Shown here piece after piece: positions 16,108 to 33,333 of a stretch of DNA of 44,967 nt (its first letter is position 1; the number at the start of each line of letters is the position of its first letter). The DNA comes from a virus. The DNA is taken from the IMG/VR virus record IMGVR_UViG_3300017770_000030, positions 1-44,967 of that record. One strand, written 5' to 3'. Made by a program: the position numbers and the translations under genes. The notes below the pieces were generated by a model, which saw nothing but the letters and a program-made list of their open reading frames with translations, had not been told where the DNA came from and did no database searches.

Positions 16108-17166
16108 TTATCCGATAGTAGGAGTTTTGTATGTAGCCAGATCAAGTGGGAAGTTATGAGCATTACGCTCATGCATTACTTCCATTCCAAGTCCTGCACG
16201 GTTAAGTATGTCAGCCCAAGTAGGGACAACACGGTTCCCGTTATCGACAATGGATTGATTAAAGTTGAAGCCGTTAAGATTGAAAGCCATAGTGCTAACA
16301 CCCAAGCTAGTAAACCAAATGCCAACAACAGGCCATGCAGCCAAGAAAAAGTGGAGGCTACGTGAGTTATTAAACGAAGCATATTGAAAGATCAGTCGTC
16401 CAAAGTATCCGTGAGCAGCGACAATATTATATGTCTCTTCTTCCTGTCCAAATTTATACCCATTGTTCTGAGATACATTCTCGGTTGTCTCCCTAACAAG
16501 GGAACTTGTGACAAGAGAACCATGCATAGCACTGAACAAAGACCCACCAAATACGCCGGCAACGCCAAGCATATGAAAAGGGTGCATAAGAATATTATGT
16601 TCAGCTTGGAAGACGAGCATGTAATTGAAGGTCCCGGAAATGCCAAGAGGCATTGCATCTGAAAAAGAACCTTGTCCAAAGGGGTACACCAAGAAGACAG
16701 CAGAGGCCGCAGCTACAGGTGCGGAGTAAGCAACGAAGATCCAGGGACGCATACCTAGCCTGTAGCTAAGTTCCCATTCGCGTCCCATGTAAGAGTAAAT
16801 ACCGAGCAAGAAGTGGAAGACAATGAGTTGGAATGGTCCACCGTTGTATAGCCATTCATCGAGACTGGCTGCTTCCCAGATGGGATAGAAGTGGAGTCCG
16901 ATGGCGTTGCTAGACGGGACAACTGCTCCCGATATAATGTTATTTCCGTAAAGGAGCGATCCTGCAACTGGTTCACGTATGCCATCAATATCAACAGGGG
17001 GAGCGGCTACGAAAGCCAGGACAAAACAAATAGTTGCGGCTAGTAATGTTGGAATCATTAGGACTCCAAACCAGCCTACGTATAGACGATTATTAGTGGA
17101 TGTCACCCACTCGCAGAAGGACTGCCAGTTATTTAGTTTTTGTGGTCTTGAAAGTACAGCGGTCAT
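16108..17166 (-). CDS. psbA: photosystem II D1 protein
   Basis: 352 residues. D1 is the photosystem II reaction-centre subunit that turns over fastest in light; phage copies keep electron flow going during infection. Numbering matches cellular D1 without gaps: H118, Y161, D170, H190, H198 and H215 are all present at canonical positions. Residue 130 is Glu (GREWELS), the form linked to high-light D1. The mature end is A344, followed by an eight-residue C-terminal extension (TYKTPTIG), shorter than the 16 residues usual in cyanobacteria. The gene lies in the virion block just before the capsid leader, as in other cyanopodoviruses, and a T-loop element lies in its leader. Confidence 0.97.
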
Positions 17167-17275: not shown

Positions 17276-17620
17276 TTAGAAGGTGTACTTCAAACCTGCT
17301 TTAGTTCCGTAGTTATTGTCAGCTTCAGCAGTCAAAACTGATACCTCTCCATAGAGAGCTAGCCGTTCACTAAGAGGTGCACTAGCACCGACTTTACCTG
17401 AGAATTCCAGATCAGAATCTGCACCATCATTAAGGACTACTGCAGGTCCTCCTTGGATATACCAGTTATCACCTTCGTATCCAACGTGATTATCAATGAC
17501 AGTAGAGCCACCGTACTCACTACCTACGAAGCCAGCATTAGCTTCGACGTTTACAAAGGGTCCAGCTTGTGCGGCACCAGCAGCGCCGAGTAGGAGTGAA
17601 GCAATAATAAGAGTTTTCAT
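17276..17620 (-). CDS. outer-membrane beta-barrel-like secreted protein
   Basis: 114 residues. It has a clear signal peptide (MKTLIIASLLLGAAGAAQA, cleavage before GPF) followed by alternating hydrophobic strands (WYIQGGPAVVL, LEFSGKVGASAP, LALYGEVSVL, KAGLKYTF) and a C-terminal Phe, the signature of outer-membrane proteins. It is too short for a classical porin and may form a small barrel or oligomer. It sits between hli-linked small genes and psbA, in the moron cassette. A possible role is envelope change during infection; this is inference. Confidence 0.65.
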   Translation of the reverse strand: MKTLIIASLLLGAAGAAQAGPFVNVEANAGFVGSEYGGSTVIDNHVGYEGDNWYIQGGPAVVLNDGADSDLEFSGKVGASAPLSERLALYGEVSVLTAEADNNYGTKAGLKYTF

Positions 17621-17929: not shown

Positions 17930-18053
17930 AATTAGAGTTAGGGGTATGTGATTTAATTGTCATGGACTTGTTTTGTAGAATTGGATTACCAATTGCTGCC
18001 ATTAACTTAGCCTTCTTCTTTACTTTAGGAGCTTTGTGTCCCTTCTTGTGCAT
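17922..18053 (-). CDS. 43-residue basic small protein
   Basis: A gene of 44 codons starting MHKKGHKAPKVKKKAKLMAA and ending HTPNSNYG. Its ATG overlaps the hli stop as TAATG, and its stop overlaps the next start, so it fits the coupled series exactly. Nearly a third of the residues are Lys or His; no family recognised. Confidence 0.5.
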   Translation of the reverse strand: MHKKGHKAPKVKKKAKLMAAIGNPILQNKSMTIKSHTPNSNYG

Positions 18054-18244
18054 TACCAAATACCAGGAATAAGTTGTCCAGTGATTGCATATGAACCGAG
18101 AGCTGCAATTACACCAAGCATTGCAAGGCGGCCATTCAACTTCTCAGCTTTTTCGTTGTGGTTTTCAGTGACGTTCATAACTTCCATAGGTGGTTCTTTG
18201 GCGAACATGTTTACACGTCCGCGTTCTTCAATGATGGTGGTCAT
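18053..18244 (-). CDS. hli: high-light-inducible protein (Hlip)
   Basis: 63 residues with one transmembrane helix bearing the chlorophyll-binding signature: EKLNGRLAMLGVIAA (residues about 33-47), followed by the conserved GQLIPG near the end. Hlips bind chlorophyll and quench excess excitation around photosystem II; phage copies are usually co-expressed with psbA. The ATG overlaps the stop of the preceding gene (AATGA) and its own stop overlaps the next start, so it is part of a tightly coupled run of tiny genes ending in psbA. Confidence 0.95.
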   Translation of the reverse strand: MTTIIEERGRVNMFAKEPPMEVMNVTENHNEKAEKLNGRLAMLGVIAALGSYAITGQLIPGIW

Positions 18245-23824: not shown

Positions 23825-24198
23825 TTAACTAAGTCAGATAGATTTGGTGGTTGATAGTTAGGTCCTTTCATTATTTTCCCGTCAGACCTACGGATTGGTT
23901 TGTTATCCAGACCAAGCTTTGATAGATTTGATTTATGTACACGATCTAGTGCTTCCTCTAGATCCCATTCCATATTTTCTGCATACTGAAAGCAGACATA
24001 CACAAGATCTGCAAGTTCTTTTAGTTCGTCTTCATAGCCTTCTTCAGTGGCTGCATACATAAACTCTTTGAACTCTTCAACGATCAAATCCCGTTGCATA
24101 GTCCGGCTCTCCCTCGCGTTCTGGATCCCATACGCTGTACGAAATTCCAGGGCTTGATCGGACAGACTTTGAGATTGGGTGTGTGTGTTGTAATTCAT
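23821..24198 (-). CDS. MazG-like nucleotide pyrophosphohydrolase
   Basis: About 125 residues from ATG 24198 (MNYNTHTQSQSLSDQAL...). The all-alpha NTP pyrophosphatase signature is present: EEFKEF (EExxE-like) and, 15 residues later, DELKELADLVYV (ExxD). These enzymes hydrolyse nucleoside triphosphates or, in phages, possibly alarmone-type nucleotides. The longer upstream reading frame is not preferred because it lies inside the preceding gene. The stop overlaps the nrdA start (ATGA), placing it in the nucleotide-metabolism operon. Confidence 0.75.
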   Translation of the reverse strand: MNYNTHTQSQSLSDQALEFRTAYGIQNARESRTMQRDLIVEEFKEFMYAATEEGYEDELKELADLVYVCFQYAENMEWDLEEALDRVHKSNLSKLGLDNKPIRRSDGKIMKGPNYQPPNLSDLVK

Positions 24199-24370
24199 TT
24201 TCAAGATAGTGGATAGCCTTTTTAAGGTCTTCTGTTTTCGTGTGAACATCCTTGTAACCGGCTCGGCACACATACTTAATTGCATTACCTAAGTGGTAGT
24301 TAAGTTGTTGATCACGTATGAAATCCCATACTTCTATTGATCCTCGGGTGTAGTGACTGGGAGATTCCAT
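24077..24370 (-). CDS. DUF3310 family protein (T7 gp1.7-like nucleotide kinase domain)
   Basis: 97 residues. The N-terminal about 60 residues carry the DUF3310 pattern: SPSHYTRGSIEVWDFIRDQ, then FHLGN-like NYHLGNAIKYVCRAGYK and KTEDLKKAIHYLENEL. In T7 the protein with this domain is gp1.7, reported to have nucleotide kinase activity. The C-terminal about 30 residues lie over the start of the MazG-like gene and look like filler. Grouping with MazG-like and RNR genes fits a role in nucleotide supply. Confidence 0.75.
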   Translation of the reverse strand: MESPSHYTRGSIEVWDFIRDQQLNYHLGNAIKYVCRAGYKDVHTKTEDLKKAIHYLENELQHTHPISKSVRSSPGISYSVWDPEREGEPDYATGFDR

Positions 24371-24570
24371 GCTTTAAGTAATTCACCTATGTTGTTAGTA
24401 AGAATAAAATTTGTTGTTTGTAATTGTAGAAACAACTCAATCATTTGATCTGGAGGACATTTATCTAGCAAGTCCTTCATTCGGCGCAGCTTGAACTGCT
24501 GTTCCACAGTCAGATCTGTTATCGGCATCGGTGGGAGTCCATAGGATGGGTCTGTTCTTTTCGAAGTCAT
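24334..24570 (-). CDS. nblA: NblA-like phycobilisome degradation adaptor
   Basis: 78 residues from ATG 24570 (64 if the inner ATG at 24528 is used, the usual NblA length). The core LTVEQQFKLRRMKDLLDK, then DQMIELFLQLQ and a terminal GELLKAW follows the NblA layout of two antiparallel helices, beginning with the signature (L)(S/T)(V/L)EQQF. The terminal Leu and Lys pair is the part that binds phycobiliprotein alpha subunits in cellular NblA. NblA brings Clp protease to the phycobilisome. It overlaps the exonuclease gene by 110 bases in another frame. A phage copy would release amino acids and reduce light harvesting. The assignment is from motif reading only. Confidence 0.68.
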   Translation of the reverse strand: MTSKRTDPSYGLPPMPITDLTVEQQFKLRRMKDLLDKCPPDQMIELFLQLQTTNFILTNNIGELLKAWNLPVTTPEDQ

Positions 24571-25243: not shown

Positions 25244-25359
25244 TTACCCTGACCCCTACTCATCTTGCGATCACCTTTAGGTTTAGATAAACGACCTTGA
25301 CCTTGTGCTGTTTTCTTTTTAGTTGACTTGATTTCGTTCTTCTTCTTTGAATAAAGCAT
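25240..25359 (-). CDS. 39-residue lysine-rich protein
   Basis: MLYSKKKNEIKSTKKKTAQG then QGRLSKPKGDRKMSRGQGK. It starts as TAATG with the polymerase stop and ends as ATGA with the exonuclease start, filling the only gap between them exactly. About a third of the residues are Lys or Arg, so nucleic-acid binding is likely; no family recognised. Confidence 0.55.
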   Translation of the reverse strand: MLYSKKKNEIKSTKKKTAQGQGRLSKPKGDRKMSRGQGK

Positions 25360-26627
25360 TAGTGGGTTTCGCTCCAGTTGTTTCCGATAGTTGCTTCGGC
25401 ATCAATACGACACCTGATGTTGTAGTATTCACCAGCTTCTGTACTGCTAAGTACCAAGGATGAACATAAGTCTTCTGCATGTTTAGGGTCTACTTCGAAC
25501 TGAAGTTCATCATGGATGAACCCTAGTTGAGAGCAGCATAAATTTAATTCTTTAATGTGATCTTGGTTGATAATCATCCAACGCTTTGCTACTATTCCAG
25601 CCCCTGATTGGAGTAAATAGTTCAACGCTTTGTGAGGTGAATCAACTGTAATTTTTCTTCCATCGATAGATCGTATGGAGCCTTTCTCCGAAGCTTTCTT
25701 AATTGCTTCCAGGAGGTTTCCCAATCCTTCAACTGCTTCGATGTATGCAGCACGAATCTCTTTACCTTTTCGTTTAGCACTTGTAGAGGAGAGTTGTTTG
25801 TCATAACTAGTACCGATTTTTTCATCTCCAGCGCCATACAAAAATGCGTAAGTAACTGTCTTGACTAGCTTTCTGGAGATACCAATTTTGTCTGCGTTGA
25901 CCTGATGGATGTCTCCATTAAGGAGGATCTCTGCATATCTGCCACCATCAAACCTAGCGAGATAATGGCTAAGCATCCGTAGCTCAATCCCAGAAAGATC
26001 AGCACCGACCATGCATAAGCCTCTGCTTGGAACAAAGAGTTCTCTAAATCTTGGGTCTGCTGGCGTCTGACTGAGGTTTGGGTTTCGGTGTGCACAACGG
26101 TGTGTACTTGTTGCAACGCTGCAGTGATGATGTATCCGGTCATTCGTAACAAGCTTCAGCCATGCGTTGACGCCGTTCGAGAGCATCCCAAGCATTTTCG
26201 TTACCGTCAAACATCTCGCAAACTGCATAGCAATCTCCGATCCAATCTCGGTCAGAATAACTTCGTCGATAACTGTTTTCCCAGTAGGTGTCTTCTGCTT
26301 TGGTTTCCATCCGTAGTGTGTTTTCAATATCCATGAAATATGATCACGAGAGGTTGGGTTTAATTCTTTTAATCGAGTAAAGGGTGCACCCTTCGCATAT
26401 CCAGACGTGCTGTTATCTCGTTTTGGAGTGAATTCTGCTCCTGCAATGAGAGAGTGTTTCCTTCGTAGTGATTCTTCAATCTCTCGAAGCTCTTGTCTGA
26501 GAGTAGATGTAAGTTGCCATGCAGCATTCGAATCAAAGGACCATCCATGAATTTCTTGTTGTGTAAGTATTTGAGCTACCTGATGTTCGAATTGGATCCA
26601 TTCAGGTATTTGTGGAAATGCTTCCAT
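25359..26627 (-). CDS. DNA polymerase, family A polymerase domain (split gene)
   Basis: 422 residues from ATG 26627 (an in-frame TTG at 26684 is the outer limit). All polymerase motifs are present: motif A GADLSGIELRMLSH, motif B RKLVKTVTYAFLYGAGDEKIG with Tyr at the position numbered 762 in E. coli Pol I, and motif C FIHDELQF. Compared with T7 gp5 about 40 residues are missing before GYAKGAPFTRL...NPTSRDHI, the region of the thioredoxin-binding loop. The exonuclease domain is in the preceding, overlapping frame (-1 relation), and no start signal with a Shine-Dalgarno sequence is visible here. It may be a split two-chain enzyme, a frameshifted product, or a sequence error. Confidence 0.9.
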   Translation of the reverse strand: MEAFPQIPEWIQFEHQVAQILTQQEIHGWSFDSNAAWQLTSTLRQELREIEESLRRKHSLIAGAEFTPKRDNSTSGYAKGAPFTRLKELNPTSRDHISWILKTHYGWKPKQKTPTGKTVIDEVILTEIGSEIAMQFARCLTVTKMLGMLSNGVNAWLKLVTNDRIHHHCSVATSTHRCAHRNPNLSQTPADPRFRELFVPSRGLCMVGADLSGIELRMLSHYLARFDGGRYAEILLNGDIHQVNADKIGISRKLVKTVTYAFLYGAGDEKIGTSYDKQLSSTSAKRKGKEIRAAYIEAVEGLGNLLEAIKKASEKGSIRSIDGRKITVDSPHKALNYLLQSGAGIVAKRWMIINQDHIKELNLCCSQLGFIHDELQFEVDPKHAEDLCSSLVLSSTEAGEYYNIRCRIDAEATIGNNWSETH

Positions 26628-27118
26628 AGTTTGGTGGTAACGTTTACATCTTGTATGCAGTAATCTTCCATTTCTTGAGACCAACTACTCCAATCTGTTT
26701 GCTTACTAAATACTCCTTTGTACTCACCTAATCTGTATCCCCAAGCTTCTAGTGAATGTCTTGACCATAATTGTTGAGACATAAATCTCCACTTTGTTTT
26801 TTGGTCTATTTCTAGTAAGTTCGGGTGGTAAAGACGTGATAGCAATAAAGTATCAATGACAAGGCTAGGAGGCTCAAACCAAGGGTATAGTTTATTGAGT
26901 ACAGGAATATCGTACCCAATAACATTATGACCCAAGATGCAGTCAGCATCGGCCAACCGCTGTACCCCTCGTATGACAGGTTCTTCATTACCCGTGTCAT
27001 TGTATGCAATAGTTTCTTGCGTATTGCAGTCGTGAATAGCAATACAGTGGATGGCATTAGCATCAAATAATAGTCCGTTTGTTTCTAAATCAAATACAAG
27101 ACTCACTTCTTCTGCCAT
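26576..27118 (-). CDS. DNA polymerase 3'-5' proofreading exonuclease domain (split gene)
   Basis: 180 residues. Exo motifs are complete: VFDLETNGLL (Exo I), LGHNVIGYDIPVL (Exo II) and MEDYCIQDVNVTTKLW (Exo III), matching T7 gp5 residues 1-190. It then runs 17 codons past the point where the polymerase frame takes over and stops with NGSNSNIR. Overlap with the polymerase frame is at least 52 bases. The sequence at the crossing (ACC AAA CTA TGG) is not a classic slippery heptamer. The domain itself is intact, so proofreading is expected whether the enzyme is one or two chains. Confidence 0.88.
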   Translation of the reverse strand: MAEEVSLVFDLETNGLLFDANAIHCIAIHDCNTQETIAYNDTGNEEPVIRGVQRLADADCILGHNVIGYDIPVLNKLYPWFEPPSLVIDTLLLSRLYHPNLLEIDQKTKWRFMSQQLWSRHSLEAWGYRLGEYKGVFSKQTDWSSWSQEMEDYCIQDVNVTTKLWKHFHKYLNGSNSNIR

Positions 27119-32120: not shown

Positions 32121-32978
32121 CTAAAAATTTATACTGGAGATGGCTTCTTTACGTGCATTATCTGTGACTTTCGCATACCTAAGTGTGGTTTCGATTTTCT
32201 TGTGGCCCATCAGGTCCATTAACACTCTTACAGGTACTCCGTCCTCAATCGCCCAAGTGGCAAATGAATGCCTAAGACAATGAAATACCATATGAGGTTC
32301 TAATCCAGCGTCTCTTACTGCCTTCTTAAAGTAGTGGAGAACTGAGTGTGCTCCGATCCATTGATCCCCAAAGATTGTCACGTCCTTTGGTACACCATCA
32401 CAGCGTGATTCCAACATAGGTAACAGCTTATCGTGGATAGGTACCGTTCTCCAATCACCATTCTTGGTGTTGAATTCTGGTCTACCTCCGATATAGATAA
32501 GGTTGTTATCTAGATCAATATCACGTACTGCTACCTTTATGCACTCTCCCCTGCGAGCACCAGTGAGTGCTGCAAACCGTACGAGCTCAGGTAAGCCTGT
32601 CTTATTCGTATGTGTACAAATAGTCTCAATGTCTACTTTTTTGAAGTAGTAAGGACGACCTTCATTCTCTTTGAAATGTGGTCTACGTGGTACGTTCATA
32701 TCTAGTTCTTCCTCATCAATGGCGTGAGTTAGAACTGTACAAACAGCAGACAACTTACGATTTAGAGTTGCATCCTCATATTCGTATTGGTCCTTGAGAT
32801 AATCAACAAAACCTCTTAAAGTCTTGCGGTCAATTTCATTGCATGGTGAGTCGCCTCCATAGTATTCAGTGAAATGTCTGGTATTGATACCAGGTTGTTT
32901 TAGTTCTAATCCCTTCCATTTAGGTCGGGTATCAAAACAAAGGTCAACTGCTTGTTGCCAGGTAACGATCTCAGCCAT
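32121..32978 (-). CDS. int: tyrosine-family site-specific integrase
   Basis: 285 residues from ATG 32978 (MAEIVTWQQAVDLCFDTRP...), which overlaps the MarR-like stop (ATGGCTGA). The SAM-like core-binding domain (residues 1-100) is followed by the catalytic domain with Arg in LTGARRGEC, a candidate Lys in the beta-hairpin FNTKNGDWRTVP, HCLRHSFATW (H-x-x-R), LMGHKKIETTLRYAK with His and the nucleophile Tyr. All catalytic residues are present, so the enzyme should be active. Integrases occur in several otherwise lytic T7-like cyanophages. No repressor of the CI type is seen. Confidence 0.92.
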   Translation of the reverse strand: MAEIVTWQQAVDLCFDTRPKWKGLELKQPGINTRHFTEYYGGDSPCNEIDRKTLRGFVDYLKDQYEYEDATLNRKLSAVCTVLTHAIDEEELDMNVPRRPHFKENEGRPYYFKKVDIETICTHTNKTGLPELVRFAALTGARRGECIKVAVRDIDLDNNLIYIGGRPEFNTKNGDWRTVPIHDKLLPMLESRCDGVPKDVTIFGDQWIGAHSVLHYFKKAVRDAGLEPHMVFHCLRHSFATWAIEDGVPVRVLMDLMGHKKIETTLRYAKVTDNARKEAISSINF

Positions 32979-33333
32979 AAAGGATGGATTTGATTTGGTG
33001 GACAAATTCCTCACCGTCAGAAGTGAGACATAACATGATCCTGCGTCCATTCTTAGGATCTGAGCTTTTAGTGACTAGACCTAACCCTGGAGTTTTAACC
33101 CGAGCACGACCATTGCCATCACTAATGGTGTCAATCATCCTTGAACATGATGCAGTAGTGAGACCTAGATCTTCCTCTATCGCTTGCTTATGACATGGAT
33201 TGTGTGAAGCAATGTAGAGGAGAACCGTTACAGCTTGCGCTGGTATCTCTCGATGCTTGGTCCTTAGTAACTCCCAACATGTGAGCAGAGATGCCAATGC
33301 ATCATCTGTTTGAAGCCTTTTTAGGGGGTCCAT
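32971..33333 (-). CDS. MarR-like winged-helix transcription regulator
   Basis: 120 residues. Helix-turn-helix region IEEDLGLTTASCSRMIDTISD (residues about 53-73), followed by a winged beta-hairpin GLGLVTKSSDPKNGRRIMLCLTSDGEEFV in the typical MarR order. It is translated with the integrase (overlapping stop and start) from a sigma70-like promoter just upstream, so it may control integrase or early gene expression. No ligand-binding information can be read from the sequence. Confidence 0.75.
   Translation of the reverse strand: MDPLKRLQTDDALASLLTCWELLRTKHREIPAQAVTVLLYIASHNPCHKQAIEEDLGLTTASCSRMIDTISDGNGRARVKTPGLGLVTKSSDPKNGRRIMLCLTSDGEEFVHQIKSILYG

Follow-up and report, generated by a model that had tools for sequence, protein, structure and literature searches.

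An nblA gene of a T7-like cyanophage and its exonuclease neighbor: evidence for an overlap by encroachment from both sides

How can a gene for an NblA-like protein come to share 110 of its 237 bases with an exonuclease gene read in another frame? This question is raised by a locus in the IMG/VR virus record IMGVR_UViG_3300017770_000030, the whole of which (44,967 bases) was analyzed and is called the window. The first-pass annotation had located the NblA-like gene correctly and had offered overprinting or a translation start within the older exonuclease gene as its origin. Its strand, which was not stated earlier, is the minus strand: the plus strand of positions 24334-24570 contains stops, and the minus strand encodes an uninterrupted protein of 78 amino acids from an ATG. 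The extent of the overlap was exactly as reported, 110 bases (24461-24570), with nblA in the +1 frame of the exonuclease. This gene is very probably a viral nblA of a T7-like cyanophage, the product of which would form a dimer, dock to ClpC and to phycobiliproteins, and feed the antenna to the protease, the overlap having arisen by encroachment. Phage nblA genes are already known; new here is how this nblA came to overlap its neighbor.

Table 1. Features of the window that are discussed in the text
Feature	Position	Strand	Evidence or remark
psbA (photosystem II D1)	16108..17166	-	PF00124, 295.8 bits
Hli-like (high-light-inducible) protein	18053..18244	-	PF00504, E 0.0014, 19.6 bits (below cut-off 22.3)
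DUF3310 gene, downstream of nblA	24077..24370	-	PF11753, 59.8 bits
nblA, 78-aa NblA-family protein	24334..24570 (stop included)	-	PF04485, 29.9 bits (cut-off 25)
T7-like 5'-3' exonuclease, 260 aa	24461..25243	-	PF02739, E 1.2e-10
Overlap part B	24461..24532	-	NblA core start (PxP..LTVEQQFKL..) read -1 as 23-aa exonuclease tail
Overlap part A	24533..24570	-	Conserved exonuclease end (..YDFEKNRPILWTP) read +1 as NblA residues 1 to ~13
ATG of nblA	24568..24570	-	From exonuclease Tyr225-Asp226 (TAT GAC read +1; tATGay)

The gene set of the record is that of a T7-like cyanophage, with a split family-A DNA polymerase, exonuclease, RNR, D1, and integrase. Residues 4-239 of the exonuclease match the phrog_107 exonuclease, and the first 37 bases of the DUF3310 gene are shared with the 3' end of nblA. 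D1 and Hli had both been named as companions of NblA in this phage. D1 was recovered with its Pfam family, and the second protein can be called Hli-like only, with a score below the PF00504 cut-off and an ExxNGRLAMxG-type motif read by eye. Adjoining psbA, positions 17276-17620 encode a protein matching PF24653 Phage_OMP (cyanophage outer-membrane-like beta barrel). The DNA polymerase (25359-27118) consists of two overlapping frames, an RNase H-like 3'-5' exonuclease part (26576-27118) and a polymerase part (25359-26684); a split DNA polymerase was also noted in the S-TIP37 record. A phage integrase (PF00589) is encoded at 32121-33050 of this podovirus genome. No tRNA gene and no Rfam match were found in the record, and the promoter and terminator scans gave fewer sites than in shuffled sequences.

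A profile search had been proposed as a check of the NblA assignment, and it supported it: residues 19-66 matched positions 1-48 of the 50 positions of PF04485 (E = 7.6e-7), above the gathering cut-off. The product also matched phrog_27006, a family without an assigned function. The narrow NCBIfam equivalog model for NblA, NF045916, yielded 26.2 bits at a cut-off of 100, and the NblA of S-TIP37 likewise remained below this cut-off with 28.4 bits. The resemblance to the Synechococcus elongatus protein including its PP-x-P region, seen earlier in the letters alone, was reproduced by phmmer as a weak single-sequence match (E = 0.017), in which LPPMPITDLTVEQQF of the window protein was aligned with LPPLPDFSLSVEQQF of 3cs5, colinear through LPPxP and (S/T)VEQQF and with LTVEQQF opposite LSVEQQF. 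When a profile of 27 phage sequences was compared with the PDB, the four best matches were the four solved NblA chains, with E values of 5e-8, 2.2e-6, 5.1e-6, and 1.3e-4, followed by the next match at 0.14. We take these chains, 3cs5, 2q8v, 2qdo, and 1ojh, to be NblA of S. elongatus, T. vulcanus, and Anabaena. Passages of PMC7966870 served as part source for the species. PF04485 was matched at E<=1 by 24 of the 25 members of the window-like alignment. The L-T-x-E-Q motif and the C-terminal Leu, Lys, and Trp that had been pointed out are present. The Leu/Lys pair is L64 and K66, and the 1ojh chain has ELLKHqW at the aligned site. K66 corresponds to the phycobiliprotein-side lysine named for Anabaena in the literature, the pair there being L51/K53, and the L-x-x-E-Q-Q-F region to the N-terminal motif that docks ClpC, for which LTVEQQF is the candidate in the window protein.

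Variability was evaluated as the mean column entropy per codon position in 98 distinct exonuclease-nblA stretches, the window and 97 of 163 fragments from loci L001 to L197. Fragments with no near-complete match to both genes, with unusual length, or being near-copies were dropped, and S-RIP1 and P-GSP1 were not included. The set contained 35 window-like sequences, 13 from isolates or fosmids, and 50 P-SSP7-like sequences. Downstream of the exonuclease, the entropy at nblA codon positions 1, 2, and 3 was 1.09, 0.58, and 1.49; the nblA frame evolves as a protein there, and the strong variability of the third position was present in all three groups. Q24, N59, L64, and W68 were invariant in all 98 sequences, and E23 occurred in 94 of them. 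A spurious open reading frame was ruled out by this codon phase. The third-position variability and the invariant core also make decay or inactivity of this nblA very improbable, a reading that would explain the weak single-sequence similarity to cellular NblA and the broken frame in the S-RIP1 record. In that record (L105 1993-2402), nblA is split over two frames, and since the exonuclease is broken as well, a sequencing error is likely.

Structure prediction, a further proposed check, gave a divided result. AlphaFold2 with 25 window-like sequences predicted helices at residues 22-36 and 40-67 behind a disordered start, with a mean pLDDT of 76.5, a pTM of 0.48, and block means of 89-94 over residues 21-60. 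The monomer is thus predicted to be a two-helix hairpin. A Foldseek search of the PDB gave one meaningless match (E = 9.7) and none of the NblA chains, a hairpin of 78 residues being a poor query; VIA-align found nothing at Z>=2. We attribute the Foldseek miss to the limited power of the method for so short a hairpin, yet it is not support. The protein would form a helical-hairpin dimer of the NblA type.

Relatives were found by tblastn in 37 of 50,697 phage records, all of them named cyanophages or uncultured phages, and at 49 IMG/VR loci; judged by these relatives, the reading frame is not a product of chance. With P-SSP7 as the query, 95 IMG/VR relatives were obtained and 80 kept. The nearest isolates, which infect Synechococcus strains, are only 49-53% identical to the window NblA. 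In S-TIP37, S-RIP2, S-CBP3/4, and others, nblA occupies the same locus, following the exonuclease. Among 26 phage records examined at this locus, nblA was present behind the exonuclease in 19 and absent in seven (P-SSP10, NATL2A-133, S-TIP28, SS120-1, S-CBP42, Syn5, and P60). Presence was called by open reading frame and then by profile; P-GSP1 and S-RIP1, the latter with its broken frame, were recovered only in the second step. In a PF04485 scan of ten relatives, only S-TIP37 and L085 passed the cut-off; KBS-P-1A, S-CBP4, and S-SRP01 matched below it, and no match was seen in P-SSP7, P-SSP3, NATL1A-7, P-GSP1, and WH11-B.

A coding sequence in the nblA frame is annotated in eight of the 19 nblA-bearing records, none of the 19 names it NblA, and S-TIP37 has no coding sequence there. 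The gene is missed or shortened in annotation because it is hidden in the 3' end of the exonuclease gene. Correct annotation matters, viral NblA being reported, in passages of PMC12892361 on Nadel et al. 2025, to make oceanic cyanobacteria capture less light. On the host side, PF04485 was matched (E<=0.001) by five of 300 genomes from the family that includes Synechococcus RCC307, two of these matches being located in phage gene neighborhoods, and by none of seven genomes in a first set. This low count may reflect divergence of picocyanobacterial nblA, since such sequences appear in a published tree (in the part of PMC9602691 consulted).

The overlap itself consists of two parts with different behavior (Table 1). 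All p values given here compare positions 1 and 3 and are guides only, alignment columns not being independent of phylogeny. In sequence belonging to the exonuclease alone, the entropy at exonuclease codon positions 1, 2, and 3 was 0.72, 0.44, and 1.38 (p = 3.8e-13). In part B, the values were 1.52, 0.96, and 0.52 (p = 3.8e-7), near those of the nblA-only sequence (1.49, 1.09, and 0.58; p = 1.0e-7). Part B evolves like nblA, and the exonuclease tail therefore looks like a passive reading of it. This indicates, on codon phase, that the last ~23 residues of the exonuclease are a shadow of nblA without visible selection of their own. In part A, the values were 0.82, 0.59, and 1.00 (p = 0.29, not significant alone). 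Part A leans to the exonuclease with a damped pattern and seems to be constrained from both sides. The switch in phase occurred close to where the exonuclease core ends, separately in the window-like, the isolate or fosmid, and the P-SSP7-like sequences. Encroachment in two directions is indicated, the first ~13 residues of NblA overlying the exonuclease's own end.

A start of translation within the older exonuclease gene, one of the two earlier proposals, agrees with the position of the nblA ATG in the Tyr225-Asp226 codon pair. At this site, the exonuclease residue was Tyr in 95 of 98 sequences and its codon was TAT in 81 of these 95, vs 128 of the 298 Tyr codons elsewhere in the same exonuclease stretches; the excess of TAT therefore suggests that the ATG is under selection. 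Each of the 98 sequences had an ATG at least 9 codons ahead of the core motif, and the overlap counted from it was 41-191 bases long (median, 92). No Shine-Dalgarno-like stretch was seen by eye before the nblA ATG, and the starts of psbA and RNR show none either.

Relatives at the same locus bear on the order of events. The exonucleases of all seven nblA-less isolates end at or within 2 residues of P-I-L-x-T-(P/S), and those with nblA mostly run on for ~17-24 residues, in S45-C4 and KBS-P-1A for only ~6. In L283, a locus of phage type within a cyanobacterial genome, nblA (1471-1686; 28.1 bits with PF04485, above the cut-off) lies 301 bases behind the exonuclease and starts with MNPLPPPVTKLT; this is apparently the same phage as IMG/VR locus L286. 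Five further IMG/VR loci, L287 to L291, have an overlap of 41 bases with the exonuclease tail present and the NblA extension absent. In these relatives with a gap (L286) or a 41-base overlap (L287 to L291), NblA starts with MNPLPPP, MKPLPPP, or MKFLP and has no extension. In an exonuclease tree of 27 rows, the L283 phage grouped with Syn5, P60, S-CBP42, SS120-1, and S-TIP28 (100/100), and P-SSP10 and NATL2A-133 stood beside the nblA-bearing S-SRP01 (96/87); many forks of this tree are unresolved, its root is unknown, and its bootstrap had not settled. The former cluster is presumably MPP-A. The position of P-SSP10 and NATL2A-133 points to a loss of nblA there.

The occurrence of nblA in Syn5/P60-like phages (L286 to L291, and L283 by its exonuclease) is an observation of its own, none of the five examined isolates of that group having the gene. 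In P-SSP10 and NATL2A-133 (L111 2186-2494 and L112 2180-2488), the DUF3310 gene starts inside the exonuclease and its product has an NblA-like lead, MTAKNQSYGP or MTAKSQSYGP, which looks as though nblA had dropped out from between the two overlaps. In a PDB profile search with six Syn5/P60-like sequences, 1ojh appeared only at E = 1.2, as the fifth of five matches. In profile comparison with the window's group, the P-SSP7 type gave E = 5.8e-33 and the Syn5/P60-like type 5.6e-17, and both are linked to NblA by this comparison, by the locus, and by partial Pfam matches.

From these relatives, we infer the order no overlap, exonuclease read-through, upstream shift of the nblA start. A ready-made nblA would have been located behind the exonuclease without overlap; the exonuclease would then have lost its stop, run into nblA, and gained the tail. 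Subsequently, the nblA start would have shifted upstream into the exonuclease at the Tyr-Asp codon pair, giving NblA an N-terminal extension largely dictated by the exonuclease sequence. That the frame is spurious, shadowing the exonuclease, or else belongs to a gene overprinted de novo is hardly conceivable: the 110 of 237 bases inside the exonuclease gene would fit it, but the frame continues open and constrained for 127 bases past the exonuclease stop, the start-site Tyr codon is biased to the synonym that makes the ATG, and relatives without an overlap contradict it. The earlier proposal of overprinting thus does not hold for the body of the gene, since the core (residues ~14-68) shares homology with cellular NblA; conserved exonuclease sequence underlies residues 1 to ~13 only, the rest of the overlap being exonuclease tail on nblA. 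De novo origin was ruled out by this homology together with the non-overlapping relatives. Stepwise growth of the overlap would make the locus a clear example of two genes that have each extended into the other, neither of them born inside its neighbor.

The relatives in Prochlorococcus phages raise a question of function. The P-SSP7-like genes (L106, L108, and L118 to L197) are under protein-level selection, and their products clearly belong to the same family as the window NblA because of the profile comparison. Ten of 20 members matched PF04485 at E<=1 (best, 1.9e-4); the alignment alone had 3cs5 at the top of the PDB list at a not significant E of 0.21, and the hairpin was again predicted, with helices at residues 21-35 and 41-68 (mean pLDDT, 64.2). 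At the site of K66, 38 of the 50 distinct P-SSP7-like sequences have Glu or Asp. Recorded hosts of the relatives include Prochlorococcus MIT9312 and NATL1A. To our knowledge, Prochlorococcus has no phycobilisomes; Synechococcus bears them. The host of P-SSP7 is Prochlorococcus MED4 (as given in passages of PMC3350473). Nothing among the literature matches listed connected NblA with P-SSP7 or Prochlorococcus phages, the studies of Nadel et al. of 2019 and 2025 being known via citations. What role an adaptor for antenna degradation may have in a host without that antenna is thus a question raised by these genes. One tentative answer is that the P-SSP7-type branch is a retargeted NblA, a ClpC adaptor for another host protein, with the window gene as the antenna-directed form at the same locus.

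The window protein itself could, by the same argument, descend from NblA and serve as a ClpC adaptor for a target different from the phycobilisome. K66 on the phycobiliprotein side varies, with Lys in 30 of the 98 distinct sequences (16 of 35 window-like, 8 of 13 from Synechococcus-phage isolates or fosmids, 6 of 50 P-SSP7-like) and Glu or Asp in at least 40, and phages of Prochlorococcus, a genus without phycobilisomes, keep a relative under protein-level selection. The window protein, however, still has L64, K66, and a complete LTVEQQF motif, its Pfam score exceeds the cut-off, and its nearest isolates infect the phycobilisome-bearing Synechococcus, so this retargeting is improbable for the window gene.

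For the antenna-directed reading of the window NblA, family membership, the hairpin prediction, protein-level selection, and the fixed place between exonuclease and DUF3310 were computed here, and binding of ClpC, binding of phycobiliproteins, and bleaching are presumed. The conserved N-terminal LTVEQQF would be the docking site for ClpC, the host chaperone in the ClpCP protease, and the end of the C-terminal helix (L64, K66, W68) would grip phycobiliproteins. The host antenna would thereby be fed to the protease during infection, and the freed amino acids and a lower excitation pressure would serve a phage carrying its own D1 and an Hli-like gene.

T7-like cyanophages, perhaps S-TIP37, are said to have been used in the 2025 study of Nadel et al. 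Freshwater Ma-LMM01, MaMV-DC, and PaV-LD, phages of other types than that of the window, likewise encode a viral NblA. Cellular NblA is described as a ClpC adaptor for phycobilisome proteins with a helix-loop-helix fold and dimers forming four-helix bundles (passages of PMC7966870); its N-terminal motif binds ClpC, and its C-terminal motif binds phycobiliproteins (passages of PMC4103541). A survey of 2010 saw no nblA in marine cyanophages or marine cyanobacteria, according to passages of PMC3037559. By 2019, predictions of nblA covered 14 cyanopodovirus isolates, and nblA taken from marine viral metagenomes had shown activity when expressed (PMC9602691 on Nadel et al. 2019, in part). The same passages of PMC9602691 report a loss of phycobilins when phage nblA genes are expressed, for the three freshwater phages a decrease of phycobilins upon infection or their loss upon nblA expression, and a tree in which marine and estuarine cyanophage nblA is distant from freshwater cyanophage nblA. 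Nadel et al. 2025 (Nature 648:434; cited in passages of PMC13386980) found that viral NblA reduces light capture of oceanic cyanobacteria, as stated in part of PMC12892361. By analogy, an antenna-cutting role of the window NblA fits this published work on other phage NblAs.

As far as these citing sources go, the nblA of T7-like cyanophages treated by Nadel et al. (2019, 2025) and that of the window agree in family, phage type, and locus behind the exonuclease. Compared with the isolates, the window NblA is distant even from the nearest, and its gene shares the 110 bases with the exonuclease. Like cellular NblA (PF04485), it has the LPPxP lead (3cs5), L-(S/T)-x-EQ-(Q/E)-F, two predicted helices, and the C-terminal Leu/Lys; unlike cellular NblA, it has ~11-13 extra N-terminal residues and a C-terminal tail of the TTPEDQ type, and both extensions are located in the overlaps with the neighboring genes.
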